Shown here: piece after piece, positions 330-12,981 of the stretch
How the letters are laid out: each line of letters begins with the position of its first letter
Position numbering within the stretch: position 1 is the stretch's first letter
From: a virus
IMG/VR virus record: IMGVR_UViG_3300037189_011503
Coordinates: 1 to 42,787 of that record
Direction: 5' to 3' (one strand)
DNA length: 42,787 nucleotides
Notes under the pieces: model-generated
The model's database searches: none
What the model was told of the DNA's origin: nothing
The model's input: only the letters and a program-made list of their open reading frames with translations
Translations under genes and position numbers: made by a program

Positions 330-3032
330 ATGACTGTTGCGAGCGCGACCGCCAAGACTGGCCCCTATGCTGGAAACGGTTCCCAGACCGTCTTTCCTTA
401 TACCTTCAAGGTGTTTGACCAGGCCGAGCTTCAGGTCGTGCTGACCAGCGCGGGCGGCATTGAGACCATCCAAACCCTAACCACGCATTACACGGTGAGC
501 GGCGTCGGGCAGGACGCGGGCGGGAACGTGACCATGGTGGCAGCGCCTTCTGCTGGCTCGTCCCTGACGATCGTGCGGGATGTGGCGTTTGTCCAGAATA
601 CGGACCTTCGCAACCAGGGCGGGTTTTACCCAGAGGTGCATGAGCGGGTGTTTGACCGGCTGACTATGCAGACCCAGCAATTAAAGCGAGGGGTAGATAG
701 TTCGCTGCGCTTGCCGGTTTCTGCTGCGGTAAACATTTCGACGGTTTTGCCTGTGCCAGAGGCTAATAAAATCATTGGTTGGAATGGTAATGGTTCCGGC
801 TTGCAAAATTTGGACAGCGCCACCTTAGCCACGATTGTTGCCTATGGCACTGCGCGGGCTAATTTGTTTTCGGGCAATGGGGTTCAGACTCAATTTTCCT
901 TGTCGGATAACCCCGGCAATCAGGCGGTACTGGATGTCTCGATCAGTGGCGTGACGCAGCGCGCTGGCGTAGATTTCACATGGTCTGGCGGCACGGCGTT
1001 AAATTTTTTGACGGCGCCTCCTGCTGGCACGAATAACATCCTGGCGCGATATTTCCAAGGGCTGCCAGGAATTATTACGGAGGCAGAAGATGTTATGTTT
1101 TTGCCTTCTGGAGCAGGCGCAGTAACCCGCACGGCAGAATCCAAAATGCGCGACATCATCAATGTCGCAGATTACGTTCCGCTCGGCACCGTCACCGCAA
1201 CGACCGATTGCCAGCCCTTCATTCGCGCTGCCATCAACGAAGCGGTGGCGCGCGGGGGCGGCATTATCTACATTCCGCCCGGTGAATACCGCATTACCAC
1301 TATGGAATTGGGCGGGCATTTCAATCTGACAGACACGAGCGACATTGCGTTTATCGGCTATGGTGCGCTGCTAAAATCAACCTTTTCTTCCGCGCCAGCA
1401 AGCACGAATGCAATGTTTTTGCTTGACGGCTTCCGGCGCCATTCCTTCGAGGGAATTCGTATTGAGGGGCTGTTTGCACGGTCCCTGTCTGTAGTCAGCG
1501 ACTACAGCATCGGTGGTTTTGTTTTGCAGTCCAGCAATCGGGATGCTGACAACCTGAGCCTTCGCAATGTTGAAGTGAAAAACGCGTACTTCTATAAAAT
1601 TACACGAGCGGTGGCGGTTCCAACCACATACCGCGCCAGAAACATCTTGATTAAAAATGGGCTATATGAGAACGGCTATTACGGGATTAACTGCCAAGAA
1701 AACGGCGATAATTTGACCGCGCGAAACTTCCTCACTAAAAATTTGCTGCGCTCTTATTTTGTTTATGGCGTCAGCAATCATGACGTGTCCTACAGTTCAT
1801 ATGGGCAAGACGCTTTTACGGATTGCGTCATTTCGGCCTTTAAAATTAACACTCAAAATATCTCGGTGAACGCCTTTATTTTTGGCGCCACCACGATAAA
1901 CGCTCATTTGGCTATTGAAAGCTTGCACGATCCTGTAGCGCAGCCTGTCCCTGCAACTATTAAAGATGTTCGAGTGAACATCAACGATATCAATTCAACC
2001 ACACCGACATCAAGTGGTTCGGTTCGGTTTGGGTATTTCCAAAACGCTACGGCTCAGACAACTTGTGCAACCGCGCTTTTCGACAACATCATCTTAACCG
2101 GCGCGGTAACTGGATACATTGATTTTACGGTATCCCAGCCTGCCAATTCAGGGCGTTTGGACATTTCCAACCTTTCCTACAATTTAGTGGGCACGGCCTA
2201 TCTTGGCAGCAAGGGGTTTTATTCGCAGATCGCGCCTGGGGTTAGACTTAATGACGCCTCAGCGTTGCAAGTGCGCGGCGGAGGTAATACCTCGCTATTT
2301 GGTACGGTTGTTTTTAGTGATTTTGCTGACGTGCAGCTTGGGTATATTGACGGCGGGGCAGGCGGGTCGTCTTGGCGATATGTCCAGAATGTCGGAAAGC
2401 CATTTGAAATTACCTATGGCGTCGGGTCGCCTTACGCCACGGGGACTTTGGTAGCGCAGATCGTTCCCTTCACGGCGGCATCTTTTGGCGTGAAGTTTTA
2501 TGAAGGTGGGAACAATACCGCGCCAAACGCAGCAAACACAGTTATGAGAATTGGTCAGGCGAACGCCACCGGACGATCAATTAACGCGACAGGAACCCTT
2601 AACGCTTCGGGTGCTGACTATGCGGAATATGAGCGCAACAACGGCCTTTCAATCGCCCGTGGTAGCATTGTCGGCTTCAAAGCTGACGGCACCTTGACGC
2701 TTACTTATTCTGAAGCGGTGCGGTTTGGCGTGAAGTCCACAAACCCTTCTTTTGTTGGTGGCGATGATTGGGCCTGCGCGGAAAGCATGAGCGAGGAAGA
2801 ATACAATGCTGCCCGCGCCGAGGTGGATCGGGTGGCCTACTCCGGCAAGGTTCCGGCCAACGTCACGGGCGCCGCGCCTGGCGATTACATTATCGCGGCA
2901 GAAGGTGAAGGCGGTGTCATTGCTGGTCAGGTGGTTTCTAGCCCGACATTCAAAGAATATCGGCGCGCGGTTGGCCGCGTGAACCGTATTTTGGAAGATG
3001 GCCGGGCGGAAATCGCGGTTATTGTTCATTAA
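330..3032 (+). CDS. Tailspike / receptor-binding protein with pectate-lyase-like fold and self-cleaving C-terminal chaperone domain
   Basis: This 900-residue protein is probably the host-binding and polysaccharide-degrading tailspike, acting as a trimer on the virion tail. The first ~125 residues resemble the particle-attachment domain of podoviral tail fibres (YAGNGSQTVFPYTFKVFDQAE ending in a VFDRLTMQTQQLKR stretch). A second short module follows near residue 190. From ~280 a pectate lyase-type start is visible (DYVPLGTVTATTDCQPFIRA, then GGGIIYIPPGEY), leading into repetitive beta-helix sequence. Residues ~755-900 (GADYAEYERN, then a GVIAGQVVS region) match the Peptidase_G2 type of intramolecular chaperone that cleaves itself off. 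ATG 330 is preferred over TTG 327 because AAGGGG lies 7 bases upstream. The central part is visibly more AT-rich than neighbouring genes, which suggests exchange of the receptor-binding module. Confidence 0.85.
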   Translation: MTVASATAKTGPYAGNGSQTVFPYTFKVFDQAELQVVLTSAGGIETIQTLTTHYTVSGVGQDAGGNVTMVAAPSAGSSLTIVRDVAFVQNTDLRNQGGFYPEVHERVFDRLTMQTQQLKRGVDSSLRLPVSAAVNISTVLPVPEANKIIGWNGNGSGLQNLDSATLATIVAYGTARANLFSGNGVQTQFSLSDNPGNQAVLDVSISGVTQRAGVDFTWSGGTALNFLTAPPAGTNNILARYFQGLPGIITEAEDVMFLPSGAGAVTRTAESKMRDIINVADYVPLGTVTATTDCQPFIRAAINEAVARGGGIIYIPPGEYRITTMELGGHFNLTDTSDIAFIGYGALLKSTFSSAPASTNAMFLLDGFRRHSFEGIRIEGLFARSLSVVSDYSIGGFVLQSSNRDADNLSLRNVEVKNAYFYKITRAVAVPTTYRARNILIKNGLYENGYYGINCQENGDNLTARNFLTKNLLRSYFVYGVSNHDVSYSSYGQDAFTDCVISAFKINTQNISVNAFIFGATTINAHLAIESLHDPVAQPVPATIKDVRVNINDINSTTPTSSGSVRFGYFQNATAQTTCATALFDNIILTGAVTGYIDFTVSQPANSGRLDISNLSYNLVGTAYLGSKGFYSQIAPGVRLNDASALQVRGGGNTSLFGTVVFSDFADVQLGYIDGGAGGSSWRYVQNVGKPFEITYGVGSPYATGTLVAQIVPFTAASFGVKFYEGGNNTAPNAANTVMRIGQANATGRSINATGTLNASGADYAEYERNNGLSIARGSIVGFKADGTLTLTYSEAVRFGVKSTNPSFVGGDDWACAESMSEEEYNAARAEVDRVAYSGKVPANVTGAAPGDYIIAAEGEGGVIAGQVVSSPTFKEYRRAVGRVNRILEDGRAEIAVIVH

Positions 3033-3913: not shown

Positions 3914-4555
3914 ATGAAAGCAATGCAATCGCGCGGGTATCGGAATAAGAACCCGGGCAACATTGATTATCACAAGAGCAACGCTTGGCAGGGGCAGGTC
4001 GGCATTGAGGCGACCGGCAACCCGCCGCGGTTTGCTGTTTTCCAAACTCACGAGCACGGCATTCGTGCCTTGGCGGCGCTGCTCACCATTTATCAGGACC
4101 GGCACAAGCTGCGCACGGTGCGCGGCATAATCAACCGCTGGGCTCCGAGCGTCGAGAACAACACGAGCGCCTATATGATGATCGTCGCCATGGCGATTGG
4201 CAAGGGGCCGGATGACGAGCTTGATCTCCACACCTATGCGGATCTCCGCCCCTTGGTGCAGGCGATCATCACGCACGAGCTTGGCGGTAATCCTTACCAG
4301 CCTGCGGTGATTGACGAGGGGCTGCGCCTGGCCGGTGTGCCTCGGCCTGTCCACACAGCGCGCGAGGCTGCGACAACCAGCACAGGCAAGGGCGCGATCA
4401 CGGTGGCGGCGGCGGCTTCTGCTGCGGCTACGGCGGCTCCTGCGCTACAAAGCCTGTCTGCCCTACCTCAATGGGTCGGCGTGGCGCTGGTGGTGGCTGT
4501 GGCGGTCGTGGCGGTGGCTTGGGTTTTAACGCAGCGGGCGAGGCGGCCGGTATGA
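3914..4555 (+). CDS. Peptidoglycan hydrolase, structural protein P5-like, with C-terminal membrane anchor
   Basis: A 213-residue protein whose first ~145 residues carry the conserved pattern RGYRNKNPGN, then RFAVFQTHEHGIRAL, then RWAPSVENNTSAY and AIITHELGG. This pattern is found in phage structural protein P5-like proteins, thought to be cell-wall-degrading transglycosylases. I cannot assign the catalytic residues with confidence. A low-complexity Ala/Thr linker (~155-180) leads to one strongly hydrophobic helix (VGVALVVAVAVVAVAWVL) followed by basic residues, so it may be tethered to the inner membrane. SD AAGGAG lies just upstream. The downstream overlap with the spanin gene places it in the lysis cassette as the endolysin. 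Confidence 0.75.
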   Translation: MKAMQSRGYRNKNPGNIDYHKSNAWQGQVGIEATGNPPRFAVFQTHEHGIRALAALLTIYQDRHKLRTVRGIINRWAPSVENNTSAYMMIVAMAIGKGPDDELDLHTYADLRPLVQAIITHELGGNPYQPAVIDEGLRLAGVPRPVHTAREAATTSTGKGAITVAAAASAAATAAPALQSLSALPQWVGVALVVAVAVVAVAWVLTQRARRPV

Positions 4556-4776
4556 TCGCTTTGATCTGGGGGCGGGTTCTGGCCTGGGTGATGGCAGCGG
4601 TGGCGGTGTTCGGCGCGCTGCTGGCCATCTGGTTCAACGGTCGCAAGTCAGGCGGCGAGCGAGTGCGTGCCAATGCCTCGGCTCAAGAGCAGGAATTAAG
4701 GAGGGAAGGCGATGAAGCTGCTGCTGATGCTGGCCGCGACGGCGCTGCTGATCGGCTGCGCTCCGGTCGTTTCTAA
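4552..4776 (+). CDS. Inner-membrane spanin (Rz-like)
   Basis: A 74-residue protein starting in an ATGA overlap with the hydrolase gene. An N-terminal hydrophobic helix (VLAWVMAAVAVFGALLAIWF) is followed by a highly charged periplasmic helical part (SAQEQELRREGDEAAADAGR). This is the usual layout of an inner spanin, although it is short for the family. The outer spanin gene begins inside it in another frame, the classic Rz/Rz1 arrangement. Its expected role is to join the inner and outer membranes and destroy the outer membrane at the end of lysis. Confidence 0.75.
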   Translation: MIALIWGRVLAWVMAAVAVFGALLAIWFNGRKSGGERVRANASAQEQELRREGDEAAADAGRDGAADRLRSGRF

Positions 4777-4918
4777 CCGGCCTTGCCCGAGGGTGACGGA
4801 GTTTCCGCCGGAGCTTCAGAGGCAGGCCGCCCTGGAGCTTGATCGCACAGCGGTGCTGGCTCAGATGATGAATGCCATGGCCGCCGATCGGGCTTTCAAC
4901 CGCGCGATCTGCGAGTGA
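4712..4918 (+). CDS. Outer-membrane spanin lipoprotein (Rz1-like)
   Basis: A 68-residue lipoprotein. The N-terminus has a lysine, a hydrophobic stretch and a lipobox, LLIGC, with Cys16 as the lipidated residue. The mature part has a proline-containing stretch (RPCPRVTEFPPEL), as in other Rz1 proteins. It starts 65 bp before the end of the inner spanin gene in a different frame, with AAGGAGGG upstream. It should act together with the inner spanin at the outer membrane. Confidence 0.82.
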   Translation: MKLLLMLAATALLIGCAPVVSNRPCPRVTEFPPELQRQAALELDRTAVLAQMMNAMAADRAFNRAICE

Positions 4919-4959: not shown

Positions 4960-5027
4960 AATGCAACCCACTGGCGTTGCTGGTGATTTACCTAACAGGT
5001 GGATATGCGAATTGTTTTGTTCGCCAA

Positions 5028-5951
5028 TCACTTAGCCCTTTTCTTTTCCGCGTTTTCCAAGCGAAAGATTGCGGCCGTCGCGCGCCGCTTTTGGTCGGCT
5101 CCGCGTGTGTAGAGCTCGACCATGGCCAAGGTCTTATGCCCGGTGATCGCGGCGATCTCGTGCGTCGAGCATCCGGCTTCAGCGAGGCGGCTGGCGGCGG
5201 TCTTGCGGAGGCCATGGAAGGTCACGCCGGCAAGGGGCTTGATGGCGTTCGTGGCGGCGGAGAATCGCGTCGAGAGCACGCGGGCTGATCGCCATGGCGT
5301 GCCCTTCTGCGTGACCAGCATCGTGACCGCCTGGCGATCCCATGTGTCGAGCTCGGCGCGTAGGTTGCGGTGGGCTGGCACCCATAGCCGGGCGCCGGTC
5401 TTCTGCTGCACCACGGCGATGCCGGCGCCGTCATAGTCGGCCCATGTCATGCGCACCACGTCGCTTGCCCGCTGCCCGGTGTAGAGGGCCAGCACGGCGG
5501 CGCGGCGGAGGTTGTCGGGCAGGGCGGTGAGGGCTTTCACCTGCAGCGCGGTCCATGGCTGGCGCTCTCCGCCAGGGAGCTTCTTCATGCCATGCAGGAC
5601 GTTGTAATCGAGGAGGTCGTCCTCGACGGCGAACTCAAGCACCACGCGGGCGATCTTCATGACCGAGTTGGCGGTGGCGGGCGTCCTGATGGCAAGGGCG
5701 TCCCGGATTGACCGGATGTGCCGGCGCTTGATCTCTGTGATCGGCACCTCTTGAAGCCCGGCCAGGCAATCCAGGTGATGGCGATAGGCGGCCTGGGTGG
5801 TGGGCTTGAGGTTGGCAAAGGCGGCGGACTTCTTATAGGCGACGACCAGCCTGCCAAAGGTCCAGGCGGCCGGGGCTGGCCGCTTGGAGTAGGAGTAGGT
5901 CTTAAGGCTTCCGTCTGCGAGCCTTCGCGTCACGCGCTTTTCTGATGGCAT
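5028..5951 (-). CDS. int: Tyrosine-recombinase integrase
   Basis: A 307-residue site-specific recombinase that should integrate the phage into the host chromosome. The N-terminal half has a SAM-like core-binding domain (~30-120: TFGRLVVAYKKS, TTQAAYRHHL). The catalytic domain carries Arg161 (YTGQRASDVVRM), Lys184 (QQKTG), His246 and Arg249 (FHGLRK), His272 (TGHKT) and the nucleophile Tyr281 (ELYTRG). All active-site residues are present. The reading frame can be extended upstream to 6014, but ATG 5951 gives a normal N-terminus. The gene overlaps the AlpA-like gene by 50 bp, so the two are probably made from one mRNA and balanced against each other. Confidence 0.93.
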   Translation of the reverse strand: MPSEKRVTRRLADGSLKTYSYSKRPAPAAWTFGRLVVAYKKSAAFANLKPTTQAAYRHHLDCLAGLQEVPITEIKRRHIRSIRDALAIRTPATANSVMKIARVVLEFAVEDDLLDYNVLHGMKKLPGGERQPWTALQVKALTALPDNLRRAAVLALYTGQRASDVVRMTWADYDGAGIAVVQQKTGARLWVPAHRNLRAELDTWDRQAVTMLVTQKGTPWRSARVLSTRFSAATNAIKPLAGVTFHGLRKTAASRLAEAGCSTHEIAAITGHKTLAMVELYTRGADQKRRATAAIFRLENAEKKRAK

Positions 5952-6156
5952 CGACTGCTCTCTCTGTAGCCTCGTCGGCTGTGGCACGGTGCGCCTGCTG
6001 GCTGTGTGAGGCAAGCCATGAGTCCAGCATTGTCACGGGATACAGGACGCATCGGCCTATTTTGAGGGGCTTGGGTCCATGGCGGCGGAGGCTCATGCGG
6101 GACAACCCGAGGTAGGTTGCCGCATCGCGCTCTCTGAGGGCGGCGCGGTCAGTCAT
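5902..6156 (-). CDS. AlpA/Xis-like helix-turn-helix excisionase or integration regulator
   Basis: An 84-residue DNA-binding protein. The N-terminal 45 residues fit an AlpA/MerR-type winged helix (RERDAATYLGLSRMSLRRHG, then PLKIGRCVLYPVTMLDSWLAS). A long basic tail follows (VDAIRKARDAKARRRKP). Position next to the integrase, overlapping it by 50 bp, suggests an excisionase or recombination directionality factor. ATG 6156 has AAAGGAG 8 bp upstream. A second in-frame ATG at 6177 also has its own AAAGGAG, so two products differing by 7 residues are possible. Confidence 0.75.
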   Translation of the reverse strand: MTDRAALRERDAATYLGLSRMSLRRHGPKPLKIGRCVLYPVTMLDSWLASHSQQAHRATADEATERAVDAIRKARDAKARRRKP

Positions 6157-6209
6157 TGGGCTGTCTCCTTTACGCATCGCCTTCTCCTTTCGCCAGCGCG
6201 CGGATGGGG

Positions 6210-6608
6210 TCACTCATCCCCTTCCCCCTTCGCCAGCGCGTCAATATCGGCGGCTGTTATGATCTTGGGTTTTTCACCTGCCATTTCTTGCAAGTCCTGC
6301 AAAATGGCAAAGCGCCACGCTTCCGGTGTGTTTGGTCGAATGATAGTAGATTGATATTTTTCAATCATCGCCCGCGCCGCTTCTTCCAGCGCGTCCTTGC
6401 GCGCTGTGGCAAGCTCGGCGCGAAGGTGGGTGATTTCAGCGATAGCGGCTTTCATTTCGCACCGGCCAATGCCCGAGCAGCATGAATTGGCGGCGCTTGG
6501 CCCAGAGGGATAATGGCAAAGCGCCTTTGCTGCGGCTTTAATTTTAGCGCGAATTTCGTCACTTAGCGGCACCCCAGGCTTGCCGGGCCAGCCGTTGGTT
6601 TTGCTCAT
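6210..6608 (-). CDS. Hypothetical early protein with coiled-coil segment
   Basis: A 132-residue protein I do not recognise. The middle contains several Cys (LCHYPSGPSAANSCCSGIGRC), possibly a metal site. A helical, heptad-like stretch follows (MKAAIAEITHLRAELATARK). The C-terminus is acidic. The start at 6608 has AGGAG 7 bp upstream and overlaps the stop of the upstream gene (ATGA). It belongs to the leftward operon that ends with the integrase, so a role in lysogeny control or host takeover is possible but not shown. Confidence 0.65.
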   Translation of the reverse strand: MSKTNGWPGKPGVPLSDEIRAKIKAAAKALCHYPSGPSAANSCCSGIGRCEMKAAIAEITHLRAELATARKDALEEAARAMIEKYQSTIIRPNTPEAWRFAILQDLQEMAGEKPKIITAADIDALAKGEGDE

Positions 6609-6868
6609 TGTGTTTCTCCTAGTGCGGCGCGCAACTTCTGCAAATCTTCTGCCAAATCGTGCTTGTCTTGAAAGTATGGGGTCGCGTATGCCGCCCAAAA
6701 CTCGACGGCATCAATCCCAAGGCGCAACGCCTCCCGCAGCCGGGCGTTCTCGGCCAGCAACGCATCACGCTCGGCGGCGATGGAGCGGAGGGCCGTGGCA
6801 ACGTCATGCAACTTCCAAAAACCTCCGTACTCTGTCGCCAGCCGTTCCGCTTCTTCCGTGGTGATCAT
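6605..6868 (-). CDS. Hypothetical helical early protein
   Basis: An 87-residue, mostly helical protein with a leucine-rich coiled coil (IAAERDALLAENARLREAL). Such small coiled-coil proteins are common in early phage operons and have no assigned function. ATG 6868 overlaps the upstream stop as ATGA, which favours it over the in-frame GTG at 6883. The stop overlaps the next start in the same way, so four consecutive small genes here are probably translated as a coupled set. Confidence 0.65.
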   Translation of the reverse strand: MITTEEAERLATEYGGFWKLHDVATALRSIAAERDALLAENARLREALRLGIDAVEFWAAYATPYFQDKHDLAEDLQKLRAALGETQ

Positions 6869-7032
6869 GTCCTTGTGTTCCACTTCCCCAACACAGCGCG
6901 AGACACTGACGCCTGCGAGACATCAAAGCTCCTGGCCAGCGTGTGCTGGGACACGTTGCCTGCGGCGTAGGCGCGCCGAATTGCGCGGGCCATCTCGAGC
7001 GTAATTTTGACTTTGGGTTTTGGTTTCTTCAT
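6865..7032 (-). CDS. Small helix-turn-helix protein (resolvase/Hin-type HTH)
   Basis: A 55-residue protein made almost only of one helix-turn-helix: KITLEMARAIRRAYAAGNVS, then QHTLARSFDVSQASVSRAVLG. The pattern (T-L-A-R-x-F-x-V-S-x-x-x-V-S-R) is that of Hin/MarR-like DNA-binding helices. GGAGG lies 8 bp before ATG 7032. It is likely a small transcription regulator of the integrase-side operon. The target site is unknown. Confidence 0.7.
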   Translation of the reverse strand: MKKPKPKVKITLEMARAIRRAYAAGNVSQHTLARSFDVSQASVSRAVLGKWNTRT

Positions 7033-7085
7033 CGGCTCATCCTCCAGGCGCCCCGCGCGACACACATTGCGCGGGGCTTGGGTTG

Positions 7086-7913
7086 TCAGATCAGGTCCAT
7101 CTCGTCAGAGGCGCCGGCGGGCTCGGGCTCTGGCGCGGGCGGTGGGAGAGGCTCCTCAATCTCGACCGCCTGGGCGTCAATCACGGCCGATGCGCGCGTG
7201 CGGCGGCGCGCTGTGGTGGGTTCCTCCTGCGCTGGCGTCGAGGCGGGCTCCTCCTTGTAGAGATCATCATCAGCCTCGACCGCCCGGTGAAACTCCTCGT
7301 CCTTGTCGGTCGAGCTTGGCAGGTACTTGGACAAGCGGCGGATGACGGTCTTTTTGGCCATCTCATCCCACCACTGAGTCCACGGCCCGGCGCCTTTGGA
7401 TCGGGACACGGCCCGCACGCGCTCGATCTCTGCGACGGTCATGATGGCGCGCTGCTTGCCGCCGTCCTTCAACGTGGCGACGGCATAGACCAGGATGGGC
7501 TTGCCGCGATCGGCGCCGAGGCATGGCTTGTGCGAGATGCGCTCGTCGTCGCCGAGCTCATAGGTGAAAGTGTCGTTTTGATAGACGACATGGGCGGCGA
7601 TGGTGCTGATCTCGCCGCTGTTGCGGGCCTTCTTCAGCAGCCCTGCGACCATCGGCATATATTGCGCCGCGGTGCCAAACTTCACGAGCGCAGCCTCGCG
7701 CCCGTCCAGCACCAGGCCATCCTGGGCGGCCTTCATAATCGCGCCGTAAATGCTGCGGCGATCGCAATCAACGATGTCCGGGTTCATTTGCAGCGCGGTC
7801 TGCGCCGTGCGGATGAACTTGGCGGAGGGGATGTGCGCCGGTAGGGCAGCGCGAAACTCCGGCTCCATCGTGGTGATGGTGTTGCGGATCTCTACGAGTG
7901 CGGTCTTAGACAT
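7086..7913 (-). CDS. recT: RecT-family single-strand annealing protein
   Basis: A 275-residue recombinase of the RecT family, which binds single-stranded DNA and anneals complementary strands during phage recombination. Family features include LQMNPDIVDCDRRSIYGAI near 40-60, DGREAALVKFG and AQYMPMVAGLLKKARNSGEI. The C-terminal basic segment GAGPWTQWWDEMAKKTVIRR is typical. The last ~70 residues form an acidic, proline-rich tail ending in EMDLI, reminiscent of single-strand-binding protein tails. Its start overlaps the stop of the exonuclease (TAATG), the usual partner arrangement (exonuclease plus annealing protein). Confidence 0.92.
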   Translation of the reverse strand: MSKTALVEIRNTITTMEPEFRAALPAHIPSAKFIRTAQTALQMNPDIVDCDRRSIYGAIMKAAQDGLVLDGREAALVKFGTAAQYMPMVAGLLKKARNSGEISTIAAHVVYQNDTFTYELGDDERISHKPCLGADRGKPILVYAVATLKDGGKQRAIMTVAEIERVRAVSRSKGAGPWTQWWDEMAKKTVIRRLSKYLPSSTDKDEEFHRAVEADDDLYKEEPASTPAQEEPTTARRRTRASAVIDAQAVEIEEPLPPPAPEPEPAGASDEMDLI

Positions 7914-8845
7914 TATGCGACTTCCTTCAGGTTGAGGCGGAATTGACGATAGCCAGAGCGGGCGCCGATGACGGTTCCGACCATGTCCGGCGTGATGGTG
8001 GTGCCGGCCGAGTCCTTGGTCTCGGTGGCGGTGAGGGTCCAGCCTTCGCCTGTGACCTTGCCGGCATCGCCGATCAGGGTCAGCATCTCAGAGCGGGCGG
8101 CTTCCTTGCGAGCGATCGCGTCCTTCTCGTCACGCGCGGCGGAGGCGTAGGACAAGGCGAGGCTGTGCAGGCGGTTGTTGCCGATGGCGTCAAGCGGTGC
8201 GCCAGAGCCGTTCCGGTAGATTTCCCGGATGGTGTCGGCGTCCTTGATGAAATCAACAGCGGGCGGGGTCTTGGCGTCCACGCGCTGCCAGAAGCGGCGG
8301 ATAGCGGCGCGGAGTTTTTCGCCGACCTGGCGGTCACGCGCGACCCGGATCACGCGGGGGGTGTTGCCTGCCACAAGGCAGACGATCAGCGCCCATTCGC
8401 GGTTTGCCACTTCAAGCTGGTGCTGCACCTGGATTTCGATATGTGGTGGAGCTTCGTCGTCGAGCCATTCGTCGCGATAGACCCGAAAATCGACGTTCTT
8501 GACCTCCATGAGGCCGGGGCCGTCAGCGTGAGATACGATCTCGAAGTCAAAGCTGGCGCCCATATGCTCGTCGGTATGGCGCCAGTAAGTGTTGATGCGC
8601 CGCACAGTGAGGCCCATGTCCTCGGCCACGCCATGAGCGATGGCGTCTTGAAGGCGAAGGCCCCAGGTCATGCGCTCGTTCTGCTCGATCTCGTCGGAGA
8701 CATTGCCGAGCTTGCGGTAAAAAAGCTCAAACTCGGTGACGTATGGCGAGAGGCCAAACAGGGCGGCGGACTCGGTGCTAGTCACGTCCTTGCGGCGCAA
8801 CTCCAGCCAGTGCTCGCGGCTGTCAGGGGTGATGATTACAGGCAT
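7913..8845 (-). CDS. YqaJ-type viral exonuclease
   Basis: A 310-residue protein of the YqaJ / lambda-exonuclease nuclease fold. It starts with SREHWLELRRKDVTSTESAAL, the typical YqaJ opening. Active-site residues visible are Asp100 (GASFDFE), then Glu114 and Lys116 (GLMEVKNVD), followed by HIEIQVQHQLEVANREWALI. It should digest one strand of duplex DNA to give the single strands used by RecT. ATG 8845 comes right after the stop of a 31-codon gene, with GAGG upstream. Confidence 0.9.
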   Translation of the reverse strand: MPVIITPDSREHWLELRRKDVTSTESAALFGLSPYVTEFELFYRKLGNVSDEIEQNERMTWGLRLQDAIAHGVAEDMGLTVRRINTYWRHTDEHMGASFDFEIVSHADGPGLMEVKNVDFRVYRDEWLDDEAPPHIEIQVQHQLEVANREWALIVCLVAGNTPRVIRVARDRQVGEKLRAAIRRFWQRVDAKTPPAVDFIKDADTIREIYRNGSGAPLDAIGNNRLHSLALSYASAARDEKDAIARKEAARSEMLTLIGDAGKVTGEGWTLTATETKDSAGTTITPDMVGTVIGARSGYRQFRLNLKEVA

Positions 8846-8941
8846 TTATCTGTCCTCTGTTTTCATGATGATTGCGATAATCCCAAGCACAACGGCCAAG
8901 AAAAGAACGCCGTAAGCCCAGGCAATAAGGATTACGTCCAT
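8846..8941 (-). CDS. 31-residue single-span membrane protein leading the recombination operon
   Basis: A very short gene with a strong ribosome binding site (GAGGA, 6 bp before ATG). The product is one hydrophobic helix (VLFLAVVLGIIAIIM) with a Trp/Tyr belt near the start and a charged end (KTEDR). Its stop is immediately followed by the exonuclease ATG, so the two are probably translationally coupled. It is the first gene after the promoter at 8962-8997. I do not know its function; superinfection exclusion or membrane tethering are possibilities. Motif copy 3 (8872-8886) lies inside it. Confidence 0.7.
   Translation of the reverse strand: MDVILIAWAYGVLFLAVVLGIIAIIMKTEDR
8872..8886. promoter_or_regulatory. 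Motif TTGNNNTAATCCCAA, copy 3
   Basis: Reads TTGCGATAATCCCAA, inside the 31-codon membrane protein gene and 27 bp ahead of the exonuclease start. It shares the nine bases TAATCCCAA with copies at 268 and 4945. Because it is also coding sequence, its role as a binding site is uncertain. Confidence 0.3.
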
Positions 8942-8961
8942 TGGTGTTCCTCGCGTTGTGT

Positions 8962-8997
8962 GTTGCGGTTATAGCAACGCATAGCGCGGTATGTCAA
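8962..8997 (-). promoter_or_regulatory. Leftward promoter with repressor-type dyad over the -10, before the recombination genes
   Basis: On the minus strand: -35 TTGACA (8997-8992), 18-bp spacer, -10 TATAAC (8973-8968). The dyad GTTGCGGTTATAGCAAC (8962-8978) covers the -10, so a bound repressor would block RNA polymerase. The arrangement is almost the same as at 17186-17220, including the shared TTGCTATAA. DNA upstream of the -35 is AT-rich (ATAAATTGGG around 9001), which could act as an UP element. Confidence 0.78.
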
Positions 8998-9012
8998 GGG
9001 ATAAATTGGGAT

Positions 9013-9330
9013 TTATTGGAACGTTGAGAGATCGGTTTCGCTGCGCGCGACGACCGCAATTCCTCCGGCGGTTTCAACCGCTTGCAGGAAATTGCGCTGC
9101 GCATCGCTCGTGCGTCCGGTGGCGATCTTCACCTCGACGGCTGTGAAAATCGCAATTTTTTTTCCGACCATCTCGGGCGTTACGGTGCGGCTGGTCCAGC
9201 CGATCAGGTCAGACCCGCCTGGGTTGGCGAGCCCGTAGCGTACGACCGACCCGTCCGGGTAATGAGCGACCCCTTGGTTGTTGCGGAAGACCACTGCCTT
9301 GCCGGACAGCGCCAGCATCAGCCGGCGCAT
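9013..9330 (-). CDS. VRR-NUC domain nuclease
   Basis: A 105-residue protein with the whole VRR-NUC core: Asp41 in NPGGSDLIGW, then Glu66 and Lys68 in AVEVKIATGR, then Gln78 in DAQRNFLQAV. These match the PD-(D/E)xK catalytic pattern. Stand-alone VRR-NUC proteins in phages are thought to cut branched DNA such as Holliday junctions. ATG 9330 has GAAGG upstream and follows the helicase stop by 14 bp. An earlier in-frame start (9396) would overlap the helicase and adds no conserved sequence. Confidence 0.85.
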   Translation of the reverse strand: MRRLMLALSGKAVVFRNNQGVAHYPDGSVVRYGLANPGGSDLIGWTSRTVTPEMVGKKIAIFTAVEVKIATGRTSDAQRNFLQAVETAGGIAVVARSETDLSTFQ

Positions 9331-9344
9331 GAGGTTGCCTTCCT

Positions 9345-10736
9345 TCACGTTGCCCGCCCTCGCGCCATGCGCGCAGTCATGATGTGTCCGGCCCATGCCG
9401 CCGGGTTCTTGTAGCCGCGCGCCTGCGCCAGCTTGATCAGGTCGTCGAAACCGCGCGCCTTCGACTGCTCCTCCATCTTAACGCGGCGGACCATGGCTGG
9501 ATCGACCTCGTGAAGTTCGCCGTCCACCTCCTCCACCTTTCGGCCCGCCTGCTCATAGACGTGACCGCAAGCCGAGCAGACCGGCGCCGGGCGATGCGTG
9601 GCAAAGCATTTCGGGCATTGCTTGATGGCGAAGTGCGGCTCGTCGTCGCTGTCCTTGGCCTTCTTCCGCTTCTCCCTGTCGGCAAGCGTCCAGTCCCGAT
9701 CGTCGTCGGGTAGCCCGTGCGTGGCGATGTTGTTGGCGTGATCCAGGATCAGCGCGTGCTGCTTGCCTGGAAAGGTGCGCAGCGCTCGCCCTACCTGTTG
9801 CAGGTAGAGGCTCAGGCTCTTGGTCGGGCGCAGCAGGATCGCGGCCTCGATCGCCGGGAGGTCAAACCCCTCGCCGAACAGGTCCACATTGCACAAGACC
9901 TGGATCTGCCCTGCCCGGAATGCTGCCAGGGCGGCGCGGCGCTCATCGCGCGGCGTGGTGCCGTCGAGGTGGTGTGCCACGAACCCGGCAGAGCGAAACT
10001 CCTGCGCGACGTGCTGGCTGTGCTTCACGCTCACGCAAAACGCGACCGCGCGCTTGCCGGCGGCCAGGCGGCGGTAATGCGAGACAGCATCCCCTACAAT
10101 CGCGCTGGCGCCCATGACCTCGGCAAGCTCGGTCTGGATGTAGTCGCCTGCTCGAGAGTGAACATTCCCGAGGTCGGGATGGGAGGGCGCGAAGGCGCGA
10201 TATGGCGAAAGGAACCCATTCTCAATCAACCACCGCACGCTCGGCCCCCGCACCATGCGGCTGAAGTGCTGGCCGAGCCCGGTGCCGTCGAGCCTCCAGG
10301 GGGTCGCGGTCAGCCCGACATGCTTGGCGCTGGGGTAGGCGTCCATCACGCGGGTCCAGCCTGCGGCCGCGACGTGATGGCACTCGTCCCAGACCACCAG
10401 CGCGGGCGCACGCACCTTGTCGAGGCGGTTCTTGAGGGTGTCGATGCTGGCGATCTGGACCGGCGCCAGAGGGTCGGGCCGCGCGCCGGCGGCGATGATC
10501 CCGTAGGAGATCCCGACCTGGGCGAAGGTACTGGCTGCCTGCTCGATTAGCTCGGCGCGGTGGCAGATGAAAAACGAGCGATGACCGCGGCTGGCGGCGG
10601 TGCCGAGCATGCTCGCGGTGAGGGCTGTCTTGCCTGCTCCAGTGGGGGCTTGGATCAGCACGCGCGGCACGTCTCGCAGGTGGGCGCGAGCCCGGGCGAT
10701 AATTTCGTCCTGATAAGGGCGGATCTTAAAAGTCAT
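9345..10736 (-). CDS. Superfamily 2 DEAD/DEAH-type DNA helicase
   Basis: A 463-residue helicase. Residues 1-37 give the Q-like motif (FKIRPYQDEII) and Walker A APTGAGKT (30-37). DECH (117-120) is motif II, and LTATPWRLDG is motif III-like. The C-terminal RecA domain shows GEGFDLPAIEAAILLRPT and QQVGRALRTFPGK (motif VI). A four-Cys cluster (CPKCFATHRPAPVCSACG) near 390-410 is a likely zinc ribbon. It resembles the restriction-type SF2 helicases encoded beside VRR-NUC in phages, probably working in replication or recombination. The start is in ATGA overlap with the 34-codon gene. Confidence 0.88.
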   Translation of the reverse strand: MTFKIRPYQDEIIARARAHLRDVPRVLIQAPTGAGKTALTASMLGTAASRGHRSFFICHRAELIEQAASTFAQVGISYGIIAAGARPDPLAPVQIASIDTLKNRLDKVRAPALVVWDECHHVAAAGWTRVMDAYPSAKHVGLTATPWRLDGTGLGQHFSRMVRGPSVRWLIENGFLSPYRAFAPSHPDLGNVHSRAGDYIQTELAEVMGASAIVGDAVSHYRRLAAGKRAVAFCVSVKHSQHVAQEFRSAGFVAHHLDGTTPRDERRAALAAFRAGQIQVLCNVDLFGEGFDLPAIEAAILLRPTKSLSLYLQQVGRALRTFPGKQHALILDHANNIATHGLPDDDRDWTLADREKRKKAKDSDDEPHFAIKQCPKCFATHRPAPVCSACGHVYEQAGRKVEEVDGELHEVDPAMVRRVKMEEQSKARGFDDLIKLAQARGYKNPAAWAGHIMTARMARGRAT

Positions 10737-10837
10737 GGCCACCACATCCAGGCCATGACCATGACCGCGATGAAGCACCACATGGCGCCGGCGAACATGA
10801 TCCAGGCGATCACCATCATGGGGTCTGAGTCGCGCAT
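10733..10837 (-). CDS. 34-residue Met/Trp-rich membrane protein
   Basis: A short ORF fitted exactly between two genes: its ATG overlaps the upstream stop by one base (TGATG) and its stop overlaps the helicase start (ATGA). The product is nearly all hydrophobic after MRDSDP (for example AWIMFAGAMWCFIAVMV), with many Met and four Trp residues, and should form one membrane helix. The tight coupling on both sides makes real translation likely. Its function is unknown to me. Confidence 0.65.
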   Translation of the reverse strand: MRDSDPMMVIAWIMFAGAMWCFIAVMVMAWMWWP

Positions 10838-11070
10838 CAGAGCAGCGCCCCTTGCACCGCCTCAGGCTGCGGGCGGCTCTGGATGTGGTCAGCGCAGTAC
10901 CACTTGCCGAGCTTGGCGTAGCCCTCCTCGCGCCTGCCATCCAGGATCAGCGCGAGGCCTATGCCCGGAAAGCACCCGACCGCTTGGATCGCGTCGGCGC
11001 CGCACACGTCGCAGGTGTTGCGCCACTTAATCGCGCCGGTTGATCGGCTCTTGAAAAGCTGGACCGGCAT
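10837..11070 (-). CDS. Small putative zinc-binding protein
   Basis: A 77-residue protein with one CxxC (Cys20, Cys23: NTCDVCGA) and a distant CxxH (Cys59, His62: WYCADH), enough for a single zinc site. No catalytic motif is visible. It sits in a one-base overlap (TGATG) with both the methyltransferase before it and the 34-codon gene after it. It may be a small DNA- or protein-binding accessory factor. The assignment of zinc binding is an inference from the residues. Confidence 0.68.
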   Translation of the reverse strand: MPVQLFKSRSTGAIKWRNTCDVCGADAIQAVGCFPGIGLALILDGRREEGYAKLGKWYCADHIQSRPQPEAVQGALL

Positions 11071-12068
11071 CACGCGACTCCCGCGAATAAGGGGGCGTCA
11101 TCCTTGATGCGCTCGCGGGCAAGCCGCGCGTATTCAGGATTGAGTTCGCATAGGATCGCGTCACGGTTCAGCCGGTCAGCAACCAGCCCGGTTGTGCCTG
11201 CGCCGCTGAATGGGTCTAAGACCGTATCGCCGGGGCGGCTGCCTGCCTTGATGCAGCGCTCCGCCAAGTCTGGCGGCATGGTGGCAAAGTGCGCGCCGCT
11301 ATAGGGCTGCGTGGCGATGGTCCAGACGTTGCGGGCGTTGCGGGTTAGCCCTGTCGGGTTTCCCGTCCGTGCCCGACTGCCGCCATCGGCGCACATCGGG
11401 TCGGAAACCTTGCGCGCGTCTGTCCTGTTGTGCCGGTCGTCGCCGGGGAAGTCCGCAGGCTCCGCAATCGCCGCCGCGTCGTAGAAATAGCTAGCCCGCT
11501 TGCTCAGCAGAAACACATGCTCATGGGCAGACGTGGGCCGGTCCCGCACGCTTTCCGGCATGGGGTTGGGCTTGTGCCAGATAATATCCGACCGCAGCCA
11601 CCAACCATCGGCGCGAAGGGCGAAGGCGACCATCCAGGGAATGCCGAGGAGGTCCTTGTATTTCACTCCATCAGCGGCAAGACGCGATCCAGGCCGGTCG
11701 CCACGTCCTACCGCGCCATCAGATGACCCTACCTTTGCAGATTGCGCTAACCCATAGACGTTGCCATACGCCGCGCAATTCTTCCCGCCCGGCCCCGATC
11801 CACCCTTGGCCTCGCTGCGCGCATAGCTATCCCCGAGGTTCAGCCAAAGCGTCCCGTCATCGCGCAGCACCCGACGCACTTCCCGAAACACGTCAACCAG
11901 CCGCGCAACATAGGCGTCAGGCGTTTCCTCGAGCCCAATCTGCCCGGCAACACCATAATCCCGGAGCCCGTAATAGGGTGGGCTGGTCACGCATGTCTGC
12001 GCCGCGCCATCGGGCAAGGTGCGCAAGGTGGTAAGGCAATCGCCAATCAGGATGGTGTTAGATGCCAT
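11070..12068 (-). CDS. DNA methyltransferase, N4-cytosine/N6-adenine type (beta class)
   Basis: A 332-residue enzyme that should transfer a methyl group from S-adenosylmethionine to an exocyclic amino group in DNA. Motif IV is TSPPYYGLRDYG (28-39); the Ser in TSPPY is more common in N4-cytosine enzymes, but some N6-adenine ones have it too. Motif I, DPFSGAGTTG (285-294), comes near the C-terminus, giving the beta-class order. The central ~100-250 region is the likely target-recognition part. No restriction nuclease is next to it, so it is an orphan methylase for self-protection or regulation. ATG 12068 overlaps the cro-like stop (TGATG). Confidence 0.88.
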   Translation of the reverse strand: MASNTILIGDCLTTLRTLPDGAAQTCVTSPPYYGLRDYGVAGQIGLEETPDAYVARLVDVFREVRRVLRDDGTLWLNLGDSYARSEAKGGSGPGGKNCAAYGNVYGLAQSAKVGSSDGAVGRGDRPGSRLAADGVKYKDLLGIPWMVAFALRADGWWLRSDIIWHKPNPMPESVRDRPTSAHEHVFLLSKRASYFYDAAAIAEPADFPGDDRHNRTDARKVSDPMCADGGSRARTGNPTGLTRNARNVWTIATQPYSGAHFATMPPDLAERCIKAGSRPGDTVLDPFSGAGTTGLVADRLNRDAILCELNPEYARLARERIKDDAPLFAGVA

Positions 12069-12268
12069 CACGCCACCAGGTCGGTATGCGACAATGCAAC
12101 CTTGCGCCGCTTGGCTTCATCCAGCAGGCGGCGGTGATACTTCGCCGGCACGTTGGTCCAACGTGTGACCGTGCTCTTGTCGATTCCCAACAGGCGAGCG
12201 ACCTCGGCCTGCGATCCAAATGCCTGAGCGAGGCGGCTTACTACCTCGGTCTTGCGCTTATCCTCCAT
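12068..12268 (-). CDS. Cro/YdaS-like helix-turn-helix regulator
   Basis: A 66-residue DNA-binding protein with one HTH: VVSRLAQAFGSQAEVARLLGIDKSTVTRW. The G-S-Q-A-x-V-A-x-L-L-G pattern is that of YdaS/Cro antitoxin-like regulators. It is divergent to the CI-like repressor gene at 12412 with a shared 143-bp control region, and is first gene of the leftward operon that includes the methyltransferase and helicase. Together these make it the likely Cro that favours lytic growth. Confidence 0.8.
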   Translation of the reverse strand: MEDKRKTEVVSRLAQAFGSQAEVARLLGIDKSTVTRWTNVPAKYHRRLLDEAKRRKVALSHTDLVA

Positions 12269-12297
12269 TGATTCCCCCGGAGATTGCTATGGCCCCC

Positions 12298-12327
12298 ATT
12301 ATCACATTGCCGTTGGGTTTTTGTCAA
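12298..12327 (-). promoter_or_regulatory. Leftward early promoter of the cro-like operon
   Basis: On the minus strand: -35 TTGACA (12327-12322), 18-bp spacer, -10 GATAAT (12303-12298), about 30 bp before ATG 12268. The -35 lies within dyad O1 (12312-12328), so repressor binding would block this promoter. Confidence 0.65.
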
Positions 12328-12328
12328 T
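12312..12328. promoter_or_regulatory. Operator-like dyad O1
   Basis: Reads GTTGGGTTTTTGTCAAT, matching the GTTG-N9-CAAC dyad at 16 of the 17 framework positions with the last base changed. It overlaps the -35 of the leftward promoter. It is also centred in a larger dyad, CATTG-N15-CAATG (12305-12329). Confidence 0.55.
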
Positions 12329-12347
12329 GGGCTTCGTGGTGTTTTCA

Positions 12348-12364
12348 GTTGCGTTTTGTGCAAC
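12348..12364. promoter_or_regulatory. Operator-like dyad O2
   Basis: Reads GTTGCGTTTTGTGCAAC, a perfect 5-bp-arm dyad (GTTGC/GCAAC, 7-bp centre). It sits 36 bp from O1 and overlaps a possible -35 (TTGCGT, 12349) of the repressor gene, whose -10 may be TGTAAT at 12374-12379 (19-bp spacing, weak). Repressor self-regulation from this site is inferred. Confidence 0.6.
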
Positions 12365-12411
12365 GGTGCGTAGTGTAATTTTTCCCGTGATGGCTTGGAT
12401 TCACAATTAAG

Positions 12412-12981
12412 ATGGATACGATCTGGTTTCAGTCGCGGATAAAAACTCTCGGCAAAAGCCAGCGGGCGCTGGCGCATGTGCTTGGAATCGACCCTGCGCA
12501 AGTCACAAACCTTTTGAAGGGGCGCAGGCGCATGCAGTTACCAGAGGCCGCGGCCGTCGCCGCGTTCCTGAATGTCTCAGTCGAAGATGTGCTTCAGCAT
12601 GCCGGTCTTGCTGTAAGCGGTGGGGCCCGGCGCGTGAAGCTTGCCGGGTACGTCGATGAGCACGGGGAGATCCACCTATCCGACCGGCCCGAGGGCGAGG
12701 TCGATGCGCCGGCACTGTCGCCGGATGGCACGATCGCCGTGCGCATGAAGGGCGACCAGATGCTCATGCGCAATGGGGTCTTGTTTTTCGCGCCGGGCGT
12801 CGGCGTGAACCCGGACGCGATTGGCCGCCTGTCAGTGGCGCGGGTCGGCGGCGGGCCATGGCTGGTCCGCACGATCTCGCCCGGCATGGAGCCTGGTCGC
12901 TATGACCTAGCTGGACCTGCCGGTGATATCGTCGAGGCCAAGCTCTCGGCGGCGTCCCCGGTGCTCTGGATCAGGCCTTAA
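12412..12981 (+). CDS. CI-like phage repressor with inactive S24-like C-terminal domain
   Basis: A 189-residue regulator. Residues ~5-62 form an XRE helix-turn-helix (KSQRALAHVLGIDPAQVTNL). The C-terminal half resembles the LexA/CI S24 fold. Where the serine nucleophile is expected (GDSM), the sequence is MKGDQML, with Gln116. The usual Lys in the VKR-like strand is also not seen (WLVRTISPG). It is therefore probably unable to cleave itself. It most likely maintains lysogeny by binding the GTTG-N9-CAAC sites. There is no strong ribosome binding site before ATG 12412 (AATTAAG only), so translation may be weak or leaderless. Confidence 0.8.
   Translation: MDTIWFQSRIKTLGKSQRALAHVLGIDPAQVTNLLKGRRRMQLPEAAAVAAFLNVSVEDVLQHAGLAVSGGARRVKLAGYVDEHGEIHLSDRPEGEVDAPALSPDGTIAVRMKGDQMLMRNGVLFFAPGVGVNPDAIGRLSVARVGGGPWLVRTISPGMEPGRYDLAGPAGDIVEAKLSAASPVLWIRP

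Follow-up and report, generated by a model that had tools for sequence, protein, structure and literature searches.

A conserved 34-codon frame ahead of a phage helicase gene and the RDSDP family of predicted small membrane proteins

A minus-strand open reading frame (ORF) of 34 residues (10733-10837; translation MRDSDPMMVIAWIMFAGAMWCFIAVMVMAWMWWP) in the window, a 42,787-base virus record, raises the questions of whether so short a frame is a gene and what its product might do. The initial annotation had it fitted exactly between two genes, and this can be read directly from the sequence: at the start, the TGA stop of the 78-amino-acid P0003 gene shares one base with the ATG of the ORF in a TGATG overlap (CTCTGATGCGC), and at the end an ATGA overlap joins the ORF to the start of the helicase gene (CCATGACT). 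The features considered are collected in Table 1. The virus is probably a temperate, epsilon15-like podovirus, given that a CI-like repressor gene and a Cro-like helix-turn-helix (HTH) gene lie on opposite strands; among the best matches to its head-tail/portal-type protein are those in epsilon15-like podoviruses (approximately 51% identity over 90%), with Cobetia phage Carin1 (49%) listed first. Its host is perhaps alphaproteobacterial, as one of the related loci (L017) sits in a metagenome-assembled genome (MAG) called Azospirillum.

Table 1. Features of the window around the 34-codon ORF, in coordinate order
Feature	Coordinates	Strand	Basis or remark
RecT annealing protein	7086..7913	-	profile match
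YqaJ/RecE-like exonuclease	7913..8845	-	profile match
VRR-NUC nuclease, true start probably internal	9013..9396	-	profile match
DEAD/DEAH DNA helicase, 463 aa	9345..10736	-	PHROG 16; ResIII and Helicase_C
ATGA overlap with helicase start	10733..10736	-	equal 4-nt overlap with next gene in 5/5 members
RDSDP-family gene (very probable), 34-aa predicted single-span membrane protein	10733..10837	-	ORF, homologues, selection, helix model
Codons 2-6, RDSDP	10820..10834	-	same in 5/5 members, codons differ
P0003, 78-aa cysteine-motif protein	10837..11073	-	homologue in all five small-gene records; no family match
N6/N4 DNA methyltransferase	11070..12071	-	family match
Small HTH regulator, Cro-like	12068..12268	-	top Pfam hit P22_Cro at 27.8 bits (cut-off 30.2 not reached)
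Promoter-like site TTGACA-18-GATAAT	12298..12327	-	11/12 matches; upstream of HTH gene
CI-like repressor, divergent from operon	12412..12981	+	weak profile matches

Homologues of the ORF and selection on its frame

Relatives were gathered by searching viral contigs and genome contigs with the helicase as query; plasmid records were searched with that query only. Homologues of the 34-residue protein, 34-37 residues long, were found in four other records, and the frame, whose conservation the initial annotation had proposed as a check, is unbroken in all four. These are L002 (helicase 98% identical; two residues of the small protein changed relative to the window), L017 (helicase 82%; small protein MRHRDSDPTVMLGWALIVVGTTVLVATVMLARAILR), L027 (helicase 77%; small protein MTPRDSDPLIGLAIALAASGIGWSLLIAAALAMWGGP), and L110 (helicase 84% over 356 residues; an L027-type small protein with one change). 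In L017, L027, and L110 the starts were assigned by homology, the frames staying open farther upstream. Since the five known members include two nearly identical pairs, they represent approximately three lineages.

The constant features of the family are the motif RDSDP, which lies within the first 8 residues of all five members, and one hydrophobic span, likewise present in all five (Kyte-Doolittle maxima of 2.13-2.36, the window protein having the top 19-residue mean of 2.36). The initial description of the product as a Met/Trp-rich membrane protein thus holds in part: the hydrophobic single span is general, while the richness in Met and Trp (8 and 5 of 34 residues, counted on the window translation) is seen only in the window and the relative closest to it and is not a family trait, as the spans of L017, L027, and L110 are rich in Ala, Leu, Val, and Ile.

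Among 183 sequences (1.3 Mb, overlapping sequences counted too) translated in six frames, the pattern [RK][DE][ST][DE]P together with a hydrophobic stretch was matched only by these five records. Two degenerate patterns run against viral contigs returned known members only; a match of L016 to the pattern AWIMFAGA, found besides that of the L002 contig, was rejected as a chance match. When three members were used as queries, no match at E 10 was found in 50,697 phage records. The test is an insensitive one: against four loci, the window and L017 score only approximately 24 bits. The small gene is absent from 7.4 kb around the helicase of L109 (74% identical), where an unrelated 53-residue ORF precedes the helicase, and it is therefore apparently dispensable there. 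It is likewise absent from the region searched around the helicase of L111 (62%), and the RDSDP motif was not found in the last 2.6 kb of the L003 contig.

Both close pairs allow the mode of change in the frame to be followed. The window and L002 differ at 11 bases, 7 of them at third positions, which amounts to 6 synonymous and 2 nonsynonymous codons; simulation gave a mean of 8.3 nonsynonymous codons, and none of 50,000 random simulations was as low as 2. L027 and L110 differ at 7 bases (6 at third positions), giving 6 synonymous codons and 1 nonsynonymous codon against a simulated mean of 4.7 nonsynonymous (P 0.004). Summed over both pairs, 12 changed codons are synonymous versus 3 nonsynonymous. 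In the overlapping frame, which would extend the downstream protein, the same differences amount to 2 synonymous and 8 nonsynonymous codons in the first pair and to 0 and 6 in the second. Further, RDSDP is encoded by differing codons across the members. Mainly synonymous change, together with a motif kept through differing codons, indicates that selection keeps the small frame and above all its N-terminus. When single bases of the ORF were permuted with the start and stop codons held, 96 of 100,000 shuffles were still open with a hydrophobic mean of at least 2.0. With the frame kept in four other records and under purifying selection in both close pairs, the ORF is well beyond chance and the 34-residue frame is very probably a real gene. 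Although it falls under the usual length cut-offs, this 34-codon ORF thus shows the behaviour of a gene under selection in a number of related phages.

Gene order around the small gene

The small gene belongs to a minus-strand run that comprises the Cro-like gene, the N6/N4 methyltransferase, P0003, the small gene, the helicase, and VRR-NUC, followed by a second small hydrophobic ORF, YqaJ, and RecT. In the promoter-like site ahead of this run, TG precedes the second hexamer; a search of both strands of 5000-12700 at a threshold of 9/12 gave 2 sites in all, versus 1.4 expected from shuffles. If the site is a promoter shut by the repressor, the small gene would be expressed early in lytic growth and be silent in the lysogen, and such timing would argue for action in early infection. 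The small ORF directly before the YqaJ exonuclease (8846-8941, minus strand; 31 residues, MDVILIAWAYGVLFLAVVLGIIAIIMKTEDR) also has a single span. Its counterpart in L002 (6796-6891) differs at 5 codons, each of them nonsynonymously, and a sequence TTGACA-18-TATAAC was seen by eye just upstream of the window ORF.

P0003 has conserved Cys and His residues (C..C, C, YC..H). It has no match in PHROGs or Pfam and none at E 1 among the 50,697 phage records, and no homologue was found in the possibly fragmentary records G002, G003, and G005. In viral contigs, P0003 was matched in 3 records, none of them new. Of 385 genomes of the class, 1 had a match, namely the previously known MAG; that same MAG was the only one of 23 genomes of the order to carry the helicase at E 1e-100.

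The neighbours of the small gene change on both sides. A C5 methyltransferase gene sits between P0003 and the small gene in L002, L027, and L110, and is absent from this place in L017. Before and over the small-gene start of L017, 25 of 26 bases (GAAGCCTTGGGAAAATC, a single mismatch, CAATGAGA) are identical to those closing the L002 methyltransferase gene at its 3' end, as if the methyltransferase had been lost in L017; a shared ribosome-binding stretch is a possible alternative. On the other side, the small gene of L110 is followed by a PAPS-reductase-like gene (2168-3004; Pfam score 22.1, just below the 22.5 cut-off) with ATGA overlaps at both of its ends, and only then by the helicase. The coupling to the helicase proposed in the initial annotation therefore describes four of the five members, in which the small gene stands directly before the helicase, but not L110. 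As the gene stays intact while its neighbours change, it is a unit of its own and not part of the helicase. The locus shows whole genes set on either side of the small gene with the stop/start overlaps re-made.

The wider distribution was surveyed at 146 distinct helicase loci that had enough upstream DNA, those with an identical 500-base stretch being counted once; they were drawn from the best 80 of each match list, so that distant relatives are partly covered. Left out were L133 (too little upstream DNA), L003 and L108 (contig starts inside the helicase), L098, L105, and L162 (match begins inside the protein), L012, L013, and L019-L023 (distant matches), and L107, L174, and L175 (further copies of contigs already counted). 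An RDSDP ORF lies directly upstream of the helicase at 4 of the 146 loci (window, L002, L017, and L027) and one gene farther upstream in L110, and on this count the idea that it generally accompanies phage helicases was rejected. Any small hydrophobic ORF stands directly before the helicase at 7 of the 146 loci, those of L011, L048, and L109 being without a common motif; in a control, such an ORF preceded 3 of 210 other long ORFs. The ORF of L011 (41 residues, MIELPVWAFVALL...) lies upstream of 4992 and stops a short way ahead of a gene distantly related to the helicase. Additionally, the Walker A motif of the L017 helicase (494-2920) is itself split (GAGK / T) by an intein-like insert; the insert begins with Cys and ends with THN before Thr, which we take to be signs of an intein.

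Predicted protein and its candidate roles

An AlphaFold2 model of the window protein, built from four sequences, is a single helix that extends from residue 6 to residue 32 (mean pLDDT 89.8), a result that for so short a hydrophobic peptide means little beyond the word helix. Charges in the small proteins are few; the basic C-terminus of the L017 member would suggest, as a guess, that the C-terminus is inside and RDSDP outside. A scan of four members, L110's being left out of the alignment, against Pfam, NCBIfam, and PHROGs brought nothing beyond weak matches and no convincing curated family. The best were PHROG 4810 (function unknown; E 0.0053) and DUF6458 (E 0.014), each matched by one of the four members; for PHROG 4810 this was a member other than the window protein, which has no match in Pfam or NCBIfam.

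With RDSDP constant and the span drifting, the motif is indicated as the site of function. The reading tentatively preferred here, a little short of an even prospect, is that of an early single-span inner-membrane protein of 34-37 residues that acts, independently of the helicase, on a target in the envelope or membrane of the host. The operon from Cro to RecT would be expressed early, and ribosomes crossing the overlapping stop and start codons would make the small protein. Its hydrophobic span would mainly need to sit in the membrane, and RDSDP, just outside the span, would make a specific contact. The outcome might be that a second phage is blocked or that a host membrane protein is altered, exclusion or takeover being suggested by analogy to other phages. 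A bolder version, which we regard as doubtful, would have the RDSDP tag, kept at the surface of the membrane by an anchor of nearly free sequence, as the whole active part, binding one host membrane protein early; if true, this would be a previously unnamed early phage micropeptide family with a five-residue constant tag as its active part.

Alternatively, the protein could be a membrane anchor or partner of the helicase or the recombination proteins that keeps the processing of phage DNA at the inner membrane. Its usual place directly before the helicase, within a replication and recombination run, would fit such a role, as would its detection only in records whose helicase shares 77% identity or more with that of the window. 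However, another gene separates the two in L110, the small gene is absent near the L109 helicase despite 74% identity, and RDSDP is very short for a docking site, making a tethering role unlikely.

The small size and hydrophobicity of the protein are also what would be expected of a membrane-active toxin or lysis-type peptide (holin, pinholin, or type I toxin-like), and the PHROG that the window protein matches best, an Rz-like spanin (PHROG 22892), is one that it resembles in having one hydrophobic segment. That match, however, reaches only E 0.46, and the gene lies in the early run, apart from the probable lysis genes on the plus strand (approximately 3914-4918). With no significant profile match to a holin or spanin and a location outside the lysis genes, this role is rather improbable. 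In that plus-strand region, the product of 3914-4555 matches PHROG 873, described as endolysin, and may be a virion enzyme, since the kind given for PHROG 873 is 'head and packaging' and tail-transglycosylase families rank behind it. Two overlapping small ORFs there (4471-4776 and 4712-4918), of which the second begins in the manner of a lipoprotein (MKLLLMLAATALLIGCAP), resemble by eye an Rz/Rz1 spanin pair; neither has a Pfam match.

It is improbable, too, that the ORF is chiefly a leader or coupler, whose translation would carry ribosomes into the next start while the peptide itself does little. The ATGA overlap that closes the ORF on the next gene in every member would suit this, and in L027 and L110 the last codons form a G-rich stretch ahead of the next start; yet L017 is without such a stretch, and a coupler would need neither a conserved N-terminus, here kept through differing codons, nor the mainly synonymous change of the frame. 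A chance ORF inside a 5' extension of the helicase frame, which in the window is open upstream to 10940, is highly improbable, as both conservation and selection speak for the small frame, and the extension would precede two unrelated proteins in L027 versus L110.

Comparison with known small phage membrane proteins

The RDSDP proteins are a new small orphan family of a familiar kind. The limited part of the literature that was covered, which includes PMC11323111 and is too small for absence from print to be claimed, holds no description of such a family.

Phage T4 encodes Imm and Sp, small early membrane proteins that serve superinfection exclusion or host takeover. Set beside them, the RDSDP protein would be shorter and would differ in having one span and an N-terminal RDSDP. 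Like Imm and Sp, the membrane protein preferred here would be very small and membrane-spanning, apparently early, and patchily distributed among related phages.
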